Assembly: GCF_019720895.1 (NCBI RefSeq)
Contig: NZ_JAHKSH010000002.1
Location: forward strand, 639,563 to 703,562
Source: Microbacterium salitolerans
GTDB taxonomy: Bacteria > Actinomycetota > Actinomycetes > Actinomycetales > Microbacteriaceae
Length of the DNA: 64,000 bases
Reading direction: 5' to 3'
Position numbers and translations under genes: made by a program
In this document: positions 21,373 to 28,783 of the stretch, in pieces
How the letters are laid out: every line of letters starts with the position of its first letter
Position numbering within the stretch: position 1 is the first letter of the stretch
The notes under the pieces: generated by a model
What the model was told of the DNA's origin: nothing
Database searches by the model: none
What the model saw: the letters and a program-made list of their open reading frames with translations, nothing else

Positions 21373-23466
21373 CTATGCGTCGATCGCCTCCTTGTCGAGG
21401 CGCGCCGCTCCCTGGACGATGAAGTTGCGCCGCGGCGCCACCTCGCTCCCCATGAGCATCTCGAACACGTGGCCCGCCTCCTCGGCGTCCTCCATGCGCA
21501 CGCGACGCAGGAGGCGGCCGTCGCGCGACATCGTCGTGTCAGCGAGCTGATCGGCATCCATCTCGCCGAGGCCCTTGTAGCGCTGAATCGGCTCCTGCCA
21601 GCGCTTGTTCTGCCGGCGCAGCTTGGCGAGCAGGGTGTTCAGCTCGCGATCGCTGTAGGTGTAGATCGTCTCGTTCGGCTTCGATCCCGGATTCATGACG
21701 ATCACCCGGTGCAGAGGCGGAACAGCCGCATAGACGCGCCCGTGCTCGATGAGCGGGCGCATGTACCGATAGAACAGCGTGAGGAGCAGCGTCCGGATGT
21801 GGGCGCCGTCGACGTCGGCGTCGCTCAGGATGATGACCTTGCCGTAGCGGGCCACGTCGATGTCGAAGGACCGTCCCGAACCCGCGCCGACCACCTGGAT
21901 CAGCGCGGCGCACTCGGCGTTCGAGAGCATGTCGCCGATCGACGCCTTCTGCGTATTGAGGATCTTCCCGCGGATGGGGAAGAGCGCCTGATACTCGCTG
22001 TCGCGTGCCTTGCGCGCCGTTCCGAGCGCCGAGTCTCCCTCGACGATGAACAGCTCGGAGTTCGACACGTCGTTCGAACGGCAGTCGATGAGCTTGGCCG
22101 GAAGCGACGACGACTCGAGCGCGTTCTTGCGGCGCTGCGTCTCCTTGTGGGCACGGGCCGAGACGCGCGCCTTCATCTCGCTCACGACCTTGTCGAGCAG
22201 CATCGACACCTGGCTCTTGTCGTCGCGCTTGGTCGACGTGAACCGGTGCTTCATCCCCTCGCGCACGACCTTCGCGACGATGGCCCGCACGGCAGGAGTG
22301 CCGAGCACTTCCTTCGTCTGGCCCTCGAACTGCGGTTCGGGCAGGCTGACGTTGAGCACGGCGGTGAGCCCCGCGAGCACGTCGTCCTTCTCGAGCTTGT
22401 CGTTTCCGACCTTGAGCCGACGGGCGTTCTTGTCGACCTCCGCGCGCAGCTGCTTCGTGAGCTCCTGCTCGAAGCCCTGCTGGTGCGTGCCGCCCTTGGG
22501 CGTCGCGATGATGTTCACGAACGACCGCATGATCGTGTCGTATCCCGTGCCCCAGCGCAGCGCGATGTCGACGCGGCACTCCCGTTCGACCTCGGTCGAG
22601 CGCATGGAGCCATCGGGCTGCAGCGTCGGGACCGTCTCGGTGAAGCTTCCCGTCCCCTCGAGCCTCCAGGTGTCCGTGACCGGGGCATCCATCGAGAGGA
22701 ACTCGACGAACTCGCCGAGGCCGCCGTCGAAGCGGTAGGAGCTCTCCTTCACACCGACCTCGGGGTCGTCGGCCGCGCGCTCATCGCGGATGACGATCTC
22801 GAGCCCCGGCACGAGGAATGCCGTCTGACGGGCGCGGGTGACGAGCTCCTCGTACTGGAAGGCGGCGTCGCTCGTGAAGATCTGACGATCGGCCCAGTAC
22901 CGCACGCGCGTGCCGGTGACGCCGCGCTTCGTCTTGCCGATGACGCGCAGTTCGCTGTTCTTCTCGAACGGCGTGAACGGCGCATCCGGGCGCGCCTCAC
23001 CGGTATCTCCGAAGATGCCGGGCTCACCCCGGTGGAAGCTCATCGCGTGCGTCTTGCCGCCGCGGTCGACCTCGACATCGAGACGCTCGCTGAGCGCGTT
23101 CACGACCGACGCCCCCACGCCGTGCAGGCCGCCGGAGGCCGCGTAGGACCCGCCGCCGAACTTCCCGCCGGCATGGAGCTTCGTGTACACGACCTCGACG
23201 CCCGTGAGGCCGGTGCGCGGCTCGACGTCGACGGGCACGCCTCGGCCGCGATCCTGGACCTCGACGCTGCCGTCGTGGCGGAGCACGACCTCGATGCGAT
23301 CGCCGTTGCCGGCGACGGCCTCGTCGACCGAGTTGTCGATGATCTCCCAGAGGCAGTGCATGAGCCCGGGCGAGCCGTTCGAGCCGATGTACATGCCCGG
23401 GCGCTTGCGAACGGCCTCCAGGCCTTCCAGCACCTGCAGATGATGGGCGGAGTACTCAGCTGTCAC
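21373..23466 (-). CDS. parE: DNA topoisomerase IV subunit B
   Basis: 697 residues from GTG 23466. GHKL ATPase motifs are present: EIIDNSVDEAVAG, DRGRGVPV and GGLHGVGASVVNALS. The TOPRIM part shows FIVEGDSALGTA and ILSDADVDGAHIRTLLL, and the C-terminus has QRYKGLGEMDADQL. This is the ATP-driven partner of ParC. A TAGGAT box sits 8 bp before the GTG, suggesting a leaderless message. The gene lies on the strand opposite to parC and next to the sigA region. GyrB is a homologue, but pairing with the adjacent ParC-type subunit favours ParE. Confidence 0.92.
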   Translation of the reverse strand: MTAEYSAHHLQVLEGLEAVRKRPGMYIGSNGSPGLMHCLWEIIDNSVDEAVAGNGDRIEVVLRHDGSVEVQDRGRGVPVDVEPRTGLTGVEVVYTKLHAGGKFGGGSYAASGGLHGVGASVVNALSERLDVEVDRGGKTHAMSFHRGEPGIFGDTGEARPDAPFTPFEKNSELRVIGKTKRGVTGTRVRYWADRQIFTSDAAFQYEELVTRARQTAFLVPGLEIVIRDERAADDPEVGVKESSYRFDGGLGEFVEFLSMDAPVTDTWRLEGTGSFTETVPTLQPDGSMRSTEVERECRVDIALRWGTGYDTIMRSFVNIIATPKGGTHQQGFEQELTKQLRAEVDKNARRLKVGNDKLEKDDVLAGLTAVLNVSLPEPQFEGQTKEVLGTPAVRAIVAKVVREGMKHRFTSTKRDDKSQVSMLLDKVVSEMKARVSARAHKETQRRKNALESSSLPAKLIDCRSNDVSNSELFIVEGDSALGTARKARDSEYQALFPIRGKILNTQKASIGDMLSNAECAALIQVVGAGSGRSFDIDVARYGKVIILSDADVDGAHIRTLLLTLFYRYMRPLIEHGRVYAAVPPLHRVIVMNPGSKPNETIYTYSDRELNTLLAKLRRQNKRWQEPIQRYKGLGEMDADQLADTTMSRDGRLLRRVRMEDAEEAGHVFEMLMGSEVAPRRNFIVQGAARLDKEAIDA

Positions 23467-23665
23467 GATGTTCGATCCTATCTTCGAATCCGTCCGGCGC
23501 CGCGCTGACACTCCCGCGGCCGGACTCCCGCTGCGAGGATCCGAGTCGTCGTACGCCCAGCGCGAAATGTGCCGCCGTTTCGGGAAGCTCACGGGGGCCG
23601 GCGTGGTTGTATGGAGGACAGACGAAGACGTGGATCTGCTGAACGACAACGAAGGAGGCAGCCCG

Positions 23666-23887
23666 ATGACTGCGACGACGACCGCCGATGCACCTGTCTC
23701 GCACCGCCTCACCGCGGCTGACCGCTGCGACGCATGCGGAGCGCAGGCCTACATCGCCGCCGAGGTGGGAGGCAGCGAGCTGCTCTACTGCGCGCACCAC
23801 GGCCGCAAGTTCGAAGAGAAGCTTCGCGCCGTCGCCACCGCGTGGCACGACGAGACCGAGAAGCTCGACGCGGAGGCCGCGAACTGA
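23666..23887 (+). CDS. DUF7455 small zinc-binding protein
   Basis: 73 residues preceded by GAAGGAGG. It contains DRCDACGAQAYI and a later YCAHHGRKFEEKL, giving CxxC plus CxHH ligands for one zinc ion, followed by a helical tail. It is a short actinobacterial protein of unknown function usually found between parE and sigA, as here. A strong terminator follows 10 bp after the stop, so it is monocistronic. Confidence 0.87.
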   Translation: MTATTTADAPVSHRLTAADRCDACGAQAYIAAEVGGSELLYCAHHGRKFEEKLRAVATAWHDETEKLDAEAAN

Positions 23888-23960: not shown

Positions 23961-25001
23961 TCAGAGGTAGGCGCGTGGGACCAGAGGCGAGATCCGGAGG
24001 AGCGGCTCCTCCCCGACCGTGCCGATCGCTTCGCCGAGGTCGGTCGGCGTCGGCTCCCCTGATGCGCCCGACCCGAAGATGACGACCTCGTCGTCGAGCG
24101 CCGCGCCCGGCCAGGCCGCAACGAACGCCTCGAACGGGTCCACGCGGAGAAGCTCCCGCGGACCGGCGGGCGTCGACACCGAGACGCGGCCGCCCAACGT
24201 CGACGGGAGGCCATCGACGGCGCCGATGCCGATGCGCACGCCCGCGTCGACCACCCCGGTCACGCGGGCCACAAGCGAGGACACGGGAGCGATTCCGGGG
24301 AGGTCGGGGCCGTCTTCGGAGCGCACGCCGAAGCAGAACGCGCCCACGCGCACCAGGTCGTAGCGGAACTCCGGGCGGTGCCACGAGGCCGCGCTCGCCG
24401 CGAGGTGGCGCACATCGGGATCCAGCCCAGCGGCGCGCGCCGCGTCGACCGCGTCGTCGAAGACGGCGCGGGAGACATCGTCCTCGTCGTCGCTCGCCTC
24501 CGCGATATGGCTCCAGATCCCCGTCACGCGGATCCTGCTCTCGCGCTCCCAGCCACGCGCGGCCGCACAGAATTCGGCCCACGCCTCAGGACGGACGCCG
24601 TTGCGGTGGAGCCCGGTGTCGATCTTGAGATGAACCGGCGCGACGACGCCCGCGCTGCGGGCCGCGCGCGCGATCCGCTCGAGATACGAGATATCGCCGA
24701 CGCCGAGTTCGAGGCCTCCTCGTATGCCCGCTTCCGCCTCTTCCTCGGACACGGTCATCCATGCCAGTACGCGCGCACGATCACCTGCTTCGGCCTTCGC
24801 GCGGAGCGAGCTCGCCAGGTCGATGCCGCCGAACCAGACCGCCCCCGCATCGAGGGCGGCATCGACGATGGGCTCGACACCCTGGGCATAGGCGTCGTCC
24901 TTGATGACGACGAGCACCTCCGCGGGCGCCATGCGCGCTCGCACGGCACGAACATTCCGGCGGAGGCGTCCGAGGTCGACGCGCAGCTCTGCCGTGTTCA
25001 C
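23961..25001 (-). CDS. Alanine racemase-like protein A (keeps PLP lysine, lacks catalytic tyrosine)
   Basis: 346 residues from GTG 25001. The fold-type III barrel is complete: Lys34 and Tyr38 in VIKDDAYAQG match the PLP-lysine motif KADAYGHG; Arg133 in KIDTGLHRNG, His165 in GIWSHIAEAS and Arg218 in YDLVRVGAF match substrate and PLP contacts. The C-terminal beta-domain is shortened: the GVSYG tyrosine segment is missing near residue 253, the CMD motif is absent, and the phosphate-contacting tyrosine near 331 is Glu. It still ends in the family's LRISPxVPRxYL. The start overlaps the upstream gene's stop by GTGA, implying coupled translation. On its own it should be a poor racemase. Confidence 0.85.
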   Translation of the reverse strand: MNTAELRVDLGRLRRNVRAVRARMAPAEVLVVIKDDAYAQGVEPIVDAALDAGAVWFGGIDLASSLRAKAEAGDRARVLAWMTVSEEEAEAGIRGGLELGVGDISYLERIARAARSAGVVAPVHLKIDTGLHRNGVRPEAWAEFCAAARGWERESRIRVTGIWSHIAEASDDEDDVSRAVFDDAVDAARAAGLDPDVRHLAASAASWHRPEFRYDLVRVGAFCFGVRSEDGPDLPGIAPVSSLVARVTGVVDAGVRIGIGAVDGLPSTLGGRVSVSTPAGPRELLRVDPFEAFVAAWPGAALDDEVVIFGSGASGEPTPTDLGEAIGTVGEEPLLRISPLVPRAYL

Positions 25002-25675
25002 GGGACCACCTCCCGCGGAGCGGACAGCCCCACCACGGCGACGAGCTCCAGCGCCGACCAACCCGTGGCACGCACCCAGTCGTCGAGCAGATGCGGGGCG
25101 GATCCTCCGAAGTACACGGCCTCCGCGCCGGACTCCAGCTCCAGATCGCTGCCGATGTCGACCACGCACACGTCCATCGCCACGCGGCCGATGATGGGGC
25201 GTTCCGCGTCTCCGAAGCGCACGGACGCCGTTCCGCCGATCGCGCGTGCCACGCCCTGCGCGTATCCGCCAGAGATCAGCGCGGCGTTGGTGTCGCTCGT
25301 CGCGCGATGCCTGTAGCCATACGAGACACCGTCGCCGGCGCGCAGGCGCTTCGTCTGCAGGACGGGGGCCGCGAACGTCAGTGCGGGGGCTCCACGTCCG
25401 TTCAGCCCGTAGACGGCATCGAGATCGAGGGCCGGCCCCGCCGACGGATGCATCCCGAGCGCCACGGCATCAGCGGGCTCGTCCGTGCGCGCCGCGGTCA
25501 CGCCCGCGGCGCGTGCGGACTCCGCCACCGTCGCGGCGCCGTGGCCGCACGCGTCGCGACGCAGATCCACGACGACATCGCGACGGCCTGCGGCCGCCGC
25601 GGCGATATTTTTCTCGAGCGCCGCGCGCGACACACGCACCCGCGGAGCGCTCATGCTCAGAGTCGACTCACTCAT
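24998..25675 (-). CDS. Alanine racemase-like protein B (barrel-deleted, keeps catalytic tyrosine domain)
   Basis: 225 residues from ATG 25675. Residues 11-70 resemble the first strands of the racemase barrel, but the PLP-lysine motif is RRDACGHG (Lys to Arg39, Tyr to Cys43) and about 170 residues of barrel are then missing. From about residue 100 a full C-terminal beta-domain follows with GVSYGYR (catalytic Tyr119), GGYAQG and GRVAMD (Met167, Asp168). These residues act in trans on the partner subunit in the family's dimers. A TAGTCT box 7 bp before the ATG suggests a leaderless message. GTGA overlap with gene A predicts co-production and heterodimer formation. Confidence 0.83.
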   Translation of the reverse strand: MSESTLSMSAPRVRVSRAALEKNIAAAAAGRRDVVVDLRRDACGHGAATVAESARAAGVTAARTDEPADAVALGMHPSAGPALDLDAVYGLNGRGAPALTFAAPVLQTKRLRAGDGVSYGYRHRATSDTNAALISGGYAQGVARAIGGTASVRFGDAERPIIGRVAMDVCVVDIGSDLELESGAEAVYFGGSAPHLLDDWVRATGWSALELVAVVGLSAPREVVP

Positions 25676-25760: not shown

Positions 25761-26786
25761 ATGCCCGCGAACGGCCTCGCCCTCGGACCGAAGCTCCGCT
25801 ATCTCGCAGAGCGCGCCCGCCGCATCGACATCGGCTCGGTGATCGAGCGCGCTCGAGAGGTGCACGACGAGCACGGCAAGGCGGTGCCTGCCGTGCTCGC
25901 GGACATGCTCTGGTCCGCCGCGAAGAAGGATGTCGCGTTCCAGGACTACGTCGACTTCGACTTCGCGATCCTCTCCGCCGCCGAGCGCGAGACCTTCATG
26001 ACCCACCCTGTCTCGGCACAGCTCGCTCAGCAGTGGTCGCAGCCCGCCGGGCGGAAGATCTTCGAGGACAAGATCGCCTTCAATCGCCGATTCGACGCGT
26101 TCCTGAAGCGCGCGTGGCTCATCGTCGACGACCACAACGTGGATGCCGTGCGTGAGTTCGTCGAGACCCAGAAGACGATCATCGCGAAGGTGCCCGTGAG
26201 CCACATGGGCCTCGGCGTGCGCCGGTATCACGCGAAGGACGTCGACGACTGGTCGGCCTTCCACCGCCAGCTGCGCGACCGCGGCGAGGTGCTGCTCGAG
26301 GAGATCATCACGCAGCACGACGACATCTCCGCCGTCTGCCCCGGCACCGTCAACACGACGCGCATCACGGCGTTCTTCGACGGCGCGGACGTGCACGTTC
26401 TCGCCGTCGCGCAGAAGTTCGGGCGCGGCGAAGTCAGCGACCAGATGTCGTACGGCGGCTTCTACACGATGCTGGACCCGGACACGGGCCACGCGATGAG
26501 CGCCGGGTACGACTCGCACGCGCATGTGCACGAGACCCACCCCGACACCGGCTTCCGCATCGCCGACTTCCAGCTCCCCCTGTTCGACGAGGCCGTCGCG
26601 CTCGTCGACAAGGCCGCCCGTGAGGTCCCCGACGTGCAGTACGCGGGATGGGACGTGGTCGTGACCCCGACCGGTCCTGTGCTCGTCGAGGGCAACTGGG
26701 GTGCGGGCGTGTACGAGAACAAGCCGAGCGTGTCGGGTGTCCGCACCGGGCACAAGCCGCGCTATCGCGCAGCCATCGGCTTCTGA
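25761..26786 (+). CDS. ATP-grasp family protein (sugar-transfer-associated type)
   Basis: 341 residues from ATG 25761, with GGAGGA upstream. An N-terminal helical region (about 1-120) precedes an ATP-grasp fold with IIAKVPVSHMGLGV, LLEEIITQH, the family-typical CPGTVNTTRI, and near the C-terminus YAGWDVVVTPTGPVLVEGNW, whose Asp and Glu/Asn should bind Mg-ATP. ATP-grasp enzymes activate a carboxylate as acyl phosphate and join it to an amine. The real substrate is unknown. It is divergent from the split racemase genes and convergent with a CofE-like ligase, which suggests amino-acid attachment; that link is inference. Confidence 0.8.
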   Translation: MPANGLALGPKLRYLAERARRIDIGSVIERAREVHDEHGKAVPAVLADMLWSAAKKDVAFQDYVDFDFAILSAAERETFMTHPVSAQLAQQWSQPAGRKIFEDKIAFNRRFDAFLKRAWLIVDDHNVDAVREFVETQKTIIAKVPVSHMGLGVRRYHAKDVDDWSAFHRQLRDRGEVLLEEIITQHDDISAVCPGTVNTTRITAFFDGADVHVLAVAQKFGRGEVSDQMSYGGFYTMLDPDTGHAMSAGYDSHAHVHETHPDTGFRIADFQLPLFDEAVALVDKAAREVPDVQYAGWDVVVTPTGPVLVEGNWGAGVYENKPSVSGVRTGHKPRYRAAIGF

Positions 26787-26846: not shown

Positions 26847-27539
26847 TCAGGCCGCGCGGATGATGCCCATCGGCGTCGACTGATGCCCCTGCCCCAGCGG
26901 GTTGTCGCTGAGGATCTTCACGAGGGTGCGCTCAGCCGTCTTGTCGAGGGTCGAGCCGAGGATGTTCCCGCCGATGTCGTTGATGTCGACGACCGCGACA
27001 TCGCAGCCGACGAGCTTCTTCATCTCCGCAGCGACCTCTCGCGGCCGCTCGGGGCCGAGCACGACCGCGTCGTTGTACGGCGGGATCGTGTTGGGAGTCG
27101 GGCCGTCGATCGCACGCGCCTTGTCGCCTGCGATCCGGTAGAAGTCGCCGCGCCGCCCGAAGAGCTTCGTCACGGCCGAGACGCCGGCGGCGAAGAGGAT
27201 CCGCAGCGGGCCGACCTCACGCAGAGCGAACTCCATCGTCTCGGGGATGCCGAGACCGATGCCGTACGCCGACTTCGTGACGTACTTCGAGAGGAAGCGC
27301 GCGAGCGGCCGAGGCTCGATCTCGCTCATCATGTAGGAGCGTCCCTGCATGATCGCGACGATCTTCTCGGTGATGAAGAGAGTGTCGCCCTGCTGGACCG
27401 AGTCGACCGCATACTTCTGGACGATCTCCTCGAGCTGATCGCCGGGCATCACCACGTGTGTGCGCAACGGGATGCGCAGGTACGAGGCGCCGTCGATCGT
27501 GACGTTGAGGGCCTTGCCCTCGTTGGCATCGCTCACCAT
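26847..27539 (-). CDS. Coenzyme F420-0:gamma-glutamyl ligase-like (CofE family) protein
   Basis: About 230 residues from ATG 27539 (GTG 27536 possible). It has CofE/FbiB-N features: PGDQLEEIVQKY, GDTLFITEKIVAIMQGR, and a C-terminal VVDINDIGGNILG stretch. CofE adds glutamate to F420-0 using GTP. No other F420 gene is in the window, so a different amino-acid acceptor is plausible. The ATG overlaps the sigA stop (TGATG), so it is translated from the sigA message. It lies next to the ATP-grasp gene and split racemase. The family call is good; the substrate is not known. Confidence 0.78.
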   Translation of the reverse strand: MVSDANEGKALNVTIDGASYLRIPLRTHVVMPGDQLEEIVQKYAVDSVQQGDTLFITEKIVAIMQGRSYMMSEIEPRPLARFLSKYVTKSAYGIGLGIPETMEFALREVGPLRILFAAGVSAVTKLFGRRGDFYRIAGDKARAIDGPTPNTIPPYNDAVVLGPERPREVAAEMKKLVGCDVAVVDINDIGGNILGSTLDKTAERTLVKILSDNPLGQGHQSTPMGIIRAA

Positions 27540-28783
27540 CACTCGAGGTAGTCCCGCAGCGACTGCGAGCGGCTCGGGTGACGCAGCTTCGCCATGGTCT
27601 TGGACTCGATCTGGCGGATCCGCTCGCGCGTGACGCCGAACGTGTCGCCGATCTGATCGAGCGTCTTGGGCTGTCCGTCTCCGAGGCCGAAGCGCATGCG
27701 GATCACGCCCGCCTCGCGCTCCGAGAGCGAGTCGAGGAGCCCCTCGAGCTGACGCTGCAGCATCGTGAAGCCCACGGCGTCCGCCGGGACCACGGCCTCG
27801 GTGTCCTCGATCAGGTCACCGAACTCGCTGTCGCCGTCCTCACCCAGTGGCGTGTGCAGAGAGATCGGCTCGCGACCGTACTTCTGCACCTCGACGACCT
27901 TCTCAGGCGTCATGTCGAGTTCCTTGGCCAGCTCCTCGGGCGTGGGCTCGCGGCCCAGATCCTGCAGCATCTGGCGCTGCACACGGGCGAGCTTGTTGAT
28001 GACCTCGACCATGTGGACCGGGATGCGGATCGTGCGGGCCTGGTCGGCCATGGCGCGCGTGATGGCCTGACGGATCCACCATGTGGCGTACGTCGAGAAC
28101 TTGAAGCCCTTGGTGTAGTCGAACTTCTCGACCGCGCGGATCAGACCGAGGTTGCCCTCCTGGATCAGATCGAGGAACTGCATTCCGCGGCCCGTGTAGC
28201 GCTTCGCGAGCGAGACGACGAGACGGAGGTTCGCGCCGAGCAGGTGGCTCTTCGCGCGCTTTCCGTCGCGGGAGACCCACTGCATGTCGAGGCCGAGCTG
28301 CGTCGACTTCTCAGCCGCCGACATCTTCGACAGCTTCTCCTCGGCGAACAGGCCCGCCTCGATCCGCATCGCGAGGTCGACTTCCTCTGCCGCGTTGAGC
28401 AGCGGAACCTTGCCGATCTGCTTCAGGTAGTCCTTGACAGGGTCGGCCGTCGCCCCGGTGATCTGCGTCGAGTAGACCGGGACGTCCTCCTCCTCGGAGG
28501 CGCTGATGACGATCGCGCCCGTCGGGAGCGGCTCGGCCTGCTCCTTCTTGGGCGCCTTCTTATCTTCGGCCTCTTCGGTCTCGGACGCGTCGTCACCGAT
28601 GATCTCGGCGACGACGTCGCTCTTCTTCCGAGCCGTCTTCTTGGCCGCAGGCTTCTTCGCGGCTGGCTTCTTCGTCGCCGCCTTCTTCGCGGCGCCCTTG
28701 GTGGCAGCCGTATCGTTCTCGGCCGTCGCGGCCGTGGTCTCGTCGACCTCGTCGGTCTTCGTGGTCTTCGTGGCAGGAGTCAC
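27539..28783 (-). CDS. sigA: Primary RNA polymerase sigma factor SigA/RpoD
   Basis: 414 residues from GTG 28783. A lysine/alanine-rich disordered N-terminus with repeated AAKKPAAKK (about 28-55) is followed by regions 1.2 to 4: [11 protein letters not shown], the core-binding and -10-recognition segment with [27 protein letters not shown] and [15 protein letters not shown], and region 4 with the helix-turn-helix [18 protein letters not shown]. The C-terminal RDYLE is standard for HrdB/RpoD. It directs transcription of housekeeping genes. The stop overlaps the CofE-like ATG, an unusual companion. Confidence 0.96.

Follow-up and report, generated by a model that had tools for sequence, protein, structure and literature searches.

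A gene pair of Microbacterium and related genera predicted to form a heterodimeric racemase with one composite active site

In trypanosomatid AdoMetDC, a catalytic subunit is associated with an inactive paralogue, the prozyme, which activates it allosterically. In alanine racemases, lysine and tyrosine are the two catalytic residues, and they come from different subunits (Lys39 and Tyr265′; PMC3485190). In the M. tuberculosis enzyme, the partner-side residues are Tyr271′ and Tyr290′ (PMC3485190). The substrate pocket of alanine racemases is narrowed by a helix-10 tyrosine (Bst Tyr354, Mtb Tyr364) that sets alanine specificity; this position, called the gate hereafter, is Thr or Ala in lysine and broad-specificity racemases (PMC3485190). 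Microbacterium walls are described with D-ornithine, L-lysine or diaminobutyrate (PMC10757982). Among the matches listed from the open-licence literature, none describes an alanine racemase that is split, heterodimeric or encoded by two genes, which is weak evidence of absence. Among the matches listed from the same kind of literature, none deals with genes for the D-diamino acid found in B-type peptidoglycan.

Two adjacent genes of Microbacterium salitolerans, A and B, are related to alanine racemase and keep opposite halves of its active site. From their sequences, and from those of their relatives, we infer a physical A:B dimer, its activity, its substrate and its role in the cell wall: the pair would encode an obligate A:B racemase of the PLP fold-type III, acting on a basic amino acid (most likely ornithine) whose D-form would enter the B-type cross-bridge. 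The probability of this reading is put at about 0.72.

The gene pair and its predicted enzyme

The window is the whole stretch of 64,000 nucleotides that was analysed (contig NZ_JAHKSH010000002.1, positions 639,563 to 703,562). Coordinates are those of the window. The gyrB and rpoD/sigA flanks are named by their sequence and are presumably these genes.

21373..23712, minus strand: DNA gyrase B-type gene (conserved flank; longest open frame, real start probably further in)
23666..23887, plus strand: DUF7455 protein (conserved flank, A side)
25001-23961, minus strand: gene A, barrel subunit (GTG at 25001, 346 aa)
24998..25001, minus strand: GTGA overlap of the B stop and the A start (-4 junction)
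25675-24998, minus strand: gene B, C-terminal-domain subunit (ATG at 25675, 225 aa)
25761..26786, plus strand: ATP-grasp protein (PF14397), divergent, 341 aa, in the exchangeable module adjoining the pair
26847..27542, minus strand: F420-0:gamma-glutamyl ligase-like (CofE-like) protein (PF01996), 231 aa, same module as the ATP-grasp protein
27539..28783, minus strand: principal sigma factor-like gene (rpoD/sigA) (conserved flank)

The original prediction gave correct coordinates for both genes and omitted their strand. They are read on the minus strand, with B upstream of A; a plus-strand reading is rejected, as it yields no such proteins. The start of A is preceded by GGGAGGTGG.

Pfam detects only Ala_racemase_N in A (7e-46) and only Ala_racemase_C in B (8e-25). 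The residues first read from the letters are all present: Lys34, Tyr38, Arg133, His165 and Arg218 in A, from which the segment of the catalytic tyrosine (Tyr265) is deleted, and catalytic Tyr119 and the GRVAMD motif in B, where most of the barrel is missing and DLRRDACGHG replaces the lysine motif, with Arg at the place of the PLP lysine. B also has gate Tyr138 and Met167. Like Tyr265, Met312 (Bst numbering) is absent from A, and B has neither the PLP lysine nor Arg219. Tyr119 and Tyr138 of B align to residues 271 and 290 of the M. tuberculosis alanine racemase (1xfc). Glu331 of A falls at the alanine gate (Bst Tyr354 / Mtb Tyr364) according to an alignment on the T-I-x-Y-E motif. Both proteins score below the curated cut-off for alr (TIGR00492, NCBIfam, 168 bits): 112.6 for A, 85.6 for B. 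The best PDB matches of the pair are alanine racemases (1vfh, 5fac, 1xfc); the broad-specificity (4dyj) and lysine (4dza) racemases score far lower. A complete alanine racemase (Alr) is also encoded in this genome, on contig C18.

It is considered very probable that A and B join in a composite-site heterodimer. A would contribute the PLP-holding barrel (Lys34, Tyr38, Arg133, His165, Arg218). B would contribute the residues that the partner subunit provides in ordinary alanine racemases (catalytic Tyr119, gate Tyr138 and Met167). Each A:B dimer would have one composite site, and the reciprocal site could not form. Translation of B and A is probably coupled through the GTGA overlap. With the PLP side and the tyrosine side on separate chains, each would be mutable alone.

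Complementary losses and joint inheritance in relatives

Positions are compared in Bst numbering (Lys39, Tyr43, Arg136, His166, Arg219, Tyr265, Tyr284, Met312). The first alignment includes 41 loci (the window and relatives): 39 with separate A and B, one fusion (L050) and one tandem of complete racemases (L076). In the 39 loci, A keeps Lys39, Tyr43, Arg136, His166 and Arg219 except where a contig end truncates its row (in L047 and L073 the cut comes before all five are readable). Tyr265 is never present in A, being deleted or, in L064 and L070, replaced by Gly. In B, Tyr265 and Met312 are present in 39/39 and Lys39 never is (R, A, S, T or D there). In 20 further loci, the five own-side residues are found in all 20 A, and the Tyr and Met in all 18 readable B rows; the two loci without a B row are L168 (contig edge) and L181 (both parts in one frame). 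In the B row of L175 the Lys39 column reads K, but the profile match of this row begins well downstream of that place.

An A-type match was found in 79 of 80 named loci. Of these, 67 have B next to A, 8 are full-length Alr that contain Tyr (Pseudolysinimonas, Agromyces, Arthrobacter, Sinomonas), and the other 4 have an explanation: a contig edge (L085), an assembly gap (L107), a B-A fusion (L144) and a B just below the score limit (L145). The remaining locus, L152, has no A-type match above the limits and is a full-length Alr. Lys39, Tyr43, Arg136 and His166 are present in A of all 79 loci, and Arg219 in 78/79, the one exception being Ser in L154. In the 67 pairs, B has Tyr265, Tyr284 and Met312 in 67/67 and Lys39 in 0/67. 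The overlap of the two genes noted in the window recurs, a -4 junction being present in 58/67 named pairs. A is split over two frames in 2/67 named Microbacterium pairs (L133, L154), by sequencing error or decay.

The barrel part of the upstream partner is reduced to various degrees: a barrel of full length whose lysine is replaced (by D in L052, S in L165 and L167, P in L166 and T in L169), a shortened barrel (L170-L172), a vestige (most loci, window included) or a bare C-terminal domain without any barrel part (L173, L176, L177). Loss of opposite halves seems to have converted a homodimeric enzyme into an obligate heterodimer. The intermediate stages in related genera form a series, rare in nature, on which one can test how paralogues become locked together by complementary loss. 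The pattern is not due to chance, since the same complementary losses recur across all inspected pairs; the pair and its losses are shared by other Microbacteriaceae, in many genera.

In most loci inspected, in many genera of the family, the pair adjoins DUF7455 and gyrB, toward rpoD. The exceptions are the fusion, the pair at the alr locus and contigs too short to tell. A pair or a fusion was seen on inspection in 59 of 199 sampled family genomes (in G124, B lies beyond the contig end), the remaining ones being uninspected or matched only as full-length racemases. The pair is widespread in the family and far from universal; many family genomes are without it. In 198 genomes of the order, short-B look-alikes were found, among the matches listed, only in the genus of the window; the other listed matches are in frames of at least 353 aa.

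Solitary A or B genes, whose occurrence would have spoken against an obligate pair, were sought by profile counts in 149 Microbacterium genomes; none was found, contig ends aside. The A profile matched 126 genomes, two of which (G445 and G529) were discounted as having full-length Alr only, so that A is present in 124/149. Of these 124, 120 gave at least two matches to the B profile, three gave B alone (G392, G419, G515) and one has a B cut by a contig end (G431); these are profile counts, adjacency having been inspected in part only. In each of the 25 genomes that lack A, the B profile matched once at most. Both genes are absent from 24 of the 149 genomes, without remnants at the DUF7455 place (1.5 kb each side), and DUF7455 is there directly beside ATP-grasp or CofE-like genes. 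The 25th (G475, locus L209; 68% complete) has a frame-broken pair, probably because of assembly quality.

Both genes are under purifying selection: over the 40 closest among 91 close pairs, dN/dS has a median of 0.19 in A and 0.20 in B. Pseudogene-like decay, also sought in relatives, was in general not found. The distances of A and B correlate (r = 0.90, shared ancestry ignored). The composite site of the original prediction is supported by the complementary residues of all pairs inspected, by this joint inheritance and by the fusions described below.

Fusions, gate residue and neighbouring modules

Natural fusions join A and B in both orders. A-B fusions are present in three genomes of genus g21 (G020, G100, G161), where the fusion is the only gene with an Ala_racemase_C (PF00842) match. 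B-A fusions are found in L144 and in L181 (one open frame). An alignment with a fused B-A protein placed the B rows on the A half, with conserved positions in that half only, and this protein was set aside as a modelling target. In G192 there are two A/B pairs and nothing that matches a full-length Alr; one of the pairs is flanked by glmS-like and tsaE-like genes and has the order A-B. The g21 fusion L287 has glmS-like and tsaE/tsaB-like neighbours. The glmS-like/tsaE-like neighbourhood, checked in two cases (L287 and L067), is presumably the usual place of alr. As no full-length Alr was found in these g21 genomes or in G192, the complementary architecture must be catalytic there, unless D-Ala comes from elsewhere (e.g. 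a D-amino acid transaminase).

In the barrel tree, the fused and G192 alr-locus barrels are placed within the ordinary Alr clade (99/98), apart from the gyrB-place A. A single origin of all A-type barrels (gyrB-place A, fused and alr-locus A) is rejected by the AU test (p 0.0003), and so is a common A clade with the fused barrels only (p 0.0038) or with the alr-locus ones only (p 0.0024). The test does not reject the fused barrels as sisters of the clade of A and second copies (p 0.30), nor gyrB-place A alone as one clade (p 0.15). In the C-domain tree, from which ten full-length rows without the SYG string were dropped, the fused B rows are found among the gyrB-place B rows (90/92, not starred), which argues against a clean independent origin. 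This tree agrees with the barrel tree for G192, not clearly for g21.

Tandem complete racemases are encoded by other Microbacteriaceae (second full-length copies in L014, L023, L025, L027, L028, L030 and L034). The barrel of these second copies is near the A clade; they keep both Lys and Tyr and have SYD instead of SYG. The tandem L076 (identical to L014), the one viewed over this length, has no gyrB or sigma gene within the surrounding 15 kb. With SYD and a Glu gate, the second copies look like the same second racemase in full-length form.

The gate was read in sets that overlap (some genomes are counted in both, L014 is L076, and the genome's own Alr is counted twice): it is Glu or Asp in 54/54 gyrB-place A outside the named loci (window included) and in 65/67 named A with B, the other two being unreadable (frame-broken L133, L154), Glu in 8/8 tandem second-copy rows (7 distinct), Tyr in the A part of 3/3 fusions and in A of the G192 alr-locus pair, and, in 21 full-length Alr, Tyr (18), Trp (2) or His (1). 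Glu331 is acidic and could bind a side-chain amine, which suggests a basic amino acid as substrate. Together with MurT/GatD-like or ligase-like neighbours, the acidic gate suggests a basic-amino-acid racemase for B-type peptidoglycan. The original prediction named no substrate; for this pair the evidence speaks against alanine. On this sequence evidence, a basic amino acid is the probable substrate. In this Microbacterium it would likely be ornithine, and the odds that the enzyme provides D-ornithine for the wall of this strain are about even. The D-amino acid product would be directed to the cross-bridge of B-type peptidoglycan.

B-type bridges leave from the alpha-carboxyl of D-Glu. In 96 loci with A and a sigma-factor gene in view (named and other copies of some genomes both included), the neighbours are CofE-like and ATP-grasp genes (51), a CofE-like gene alone (3) or a MurT-like gene (42), and both modules are found together in 0/96 at the score limits used. 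Weak MurT matches lie beside CofE-like genes in L096, L113 and L132, and L171, one of the 20 further loci, has MurT/GatD-like and CofE-like genes together. Mutual exclusion of the two modules is therefore strong, not absolute. The presence of two alternative modules in the same slot, which separates the pair from the sigma-factor gene (L037-L156; 25761-27542 in the window), suggests non-orthologous replacement. MurT and GatD are identified by Pfam matches and by NCBIfam matches below the equivalog cut-offs. The nucleophile Cys is found in 0/43 GatD-like frames of L039-L145 (Gly, Ala or Ser by motif reading; the L068 row is misaligned), its position being presumably that given by the class I motif. 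The C94G mutant of S. aureus GatD loses glutamine use (PMC3266927). Loss of the Cys suggests that MurT may ligate something other than ammonia. ATP-grasp or CofE-like genes remain in genomes without the pair. In many pairless Microbacterium (L185-L193, L195, L199, L207), two consecutive ATP-grasp genes occupy the place of the pair.

M. enclense is reported with L-lysine (PMC10757982), yet the pair is intact in M. enclense strain ZYFD042 (L129), which argues against a simple D-ornithine rule. The DNPA form of MurE is that of the S. aureus lysine-adding enzyme (PMC3829189). It is found in 6/24 pairless Microbacterium genomes (L210-L214, L216) versus 0/29 pair-bearing ones with a MurE match (30 sampled, G396 without match; second copies of G447 and G444 left out; kinship ignored). 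In four of these six genomes it is the only MurE match. Other forms in pairless genomes are DQHPR (6) and DFNPR (1). The ordinary DHHPR form is kept by 11/24 pairless genomes without DNPA, DQHPR or DFNPR; one of these (G529) has two further MurE-like copies. The pair-bearing G393 has DDNPY only. A simple D-ornithine rule drawn from MurE is rejected, as a changed MurE is seen in only part of the pairless genomes.

By its gate residue and its neighbours, the locus offers candidates for the genes behind the D-diamino acid in B-type peptidoglycan. A wider reading is tentative: the gyrB-rpoD stretch might be a cross-bridge locus of B-type peptidoglycan, in which D-Orn, D-Dab or D-Lys is the product of the heterodimeric racemase, while a residue is attached to the alpha-carboxyl of D-Glu by the adjoining module (MurT and a GatD without glutaminase activity, or the CofE-like and ATP-grasp proteins); complementary halves would have arisen more than once and would have replaced the essential alanine racemase in some genera.

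Alternative readings and comparison with known systems

The composite-site heterodimer could be a second alanine racemase. The pair is homologous to Alr, and in g21 and G192 D-Ala has to come from an A/B-type enzyme if there is no other source there. This isozyme is nevertheless unlikely: the gate is Glu or Asp in all readable gyrB-place A versus Tyr in the fused and G192 alr-locus A, and a complete Alr is already present in this genome.

That A:B is a PLP enzyme other than a racemase (e.g. a decarboxylase or a PLP-holding regulator) is quite improbable. An acidic gate could suit many amines, and fold-type III includes ornithine decarboxylases of the alanine-racemase fold (PMC8503589), but both racemase bases, Lys and Tyr, are retained across the two chains of the pairs.

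Slightly less credible still are mixed dimers, in which A would use the C-terminal domain of the complete Alr of the genome. Alr does retain the partner-side residues; however, the catalytic Tyr and Met are present in all inspected B rows, the two genes disappear together, and the fusions join A to B.

Functionless, decaying duplicates can practically be dismissed: half a site is missing from each protein, both miss the NCBIfam alr cut-off and A is frame-broken in 2/67 named pairs, but dN/dS is about 0.2 for both genes, the pair is conserved over many genera with invariant catalytic residues, and the 24 pairless genomes show clean joint absence.

The obligate A:B racemase favoured here would share with Alr (TIGR00492; PF01168 and PF00842) the fold domains, the PLP lysine, Arg219, the Tyr265′/Met312′ chemistry and a composite site at the dimer interface. 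Unlike in the Alr homodimer, two genes keep one side each, and gate Tyr354 is replaced by Glu331. The lysine racemase Lyr and the broad-specificity racemase Bar have also lost the helix-10 gate Tyr, a loss linked there to larger basic substrates; they have Thr391 (Lyr) and Ala393 (Bar) versus Glu/Asp here, and are homodimers of full-length chains (PMC3485190). The tandem second Alr copies resemble the pair by a barrel near the A clade and a Glu gate, and differ from it by being full-length, with SYD and with both Lys and Tyr. As in AdoMetDC with its prozyme, a paralogous heterodimer would replace a homodimer; unlike the prozyme, B appears to donate a catalytic residue rather than allosteric activation.
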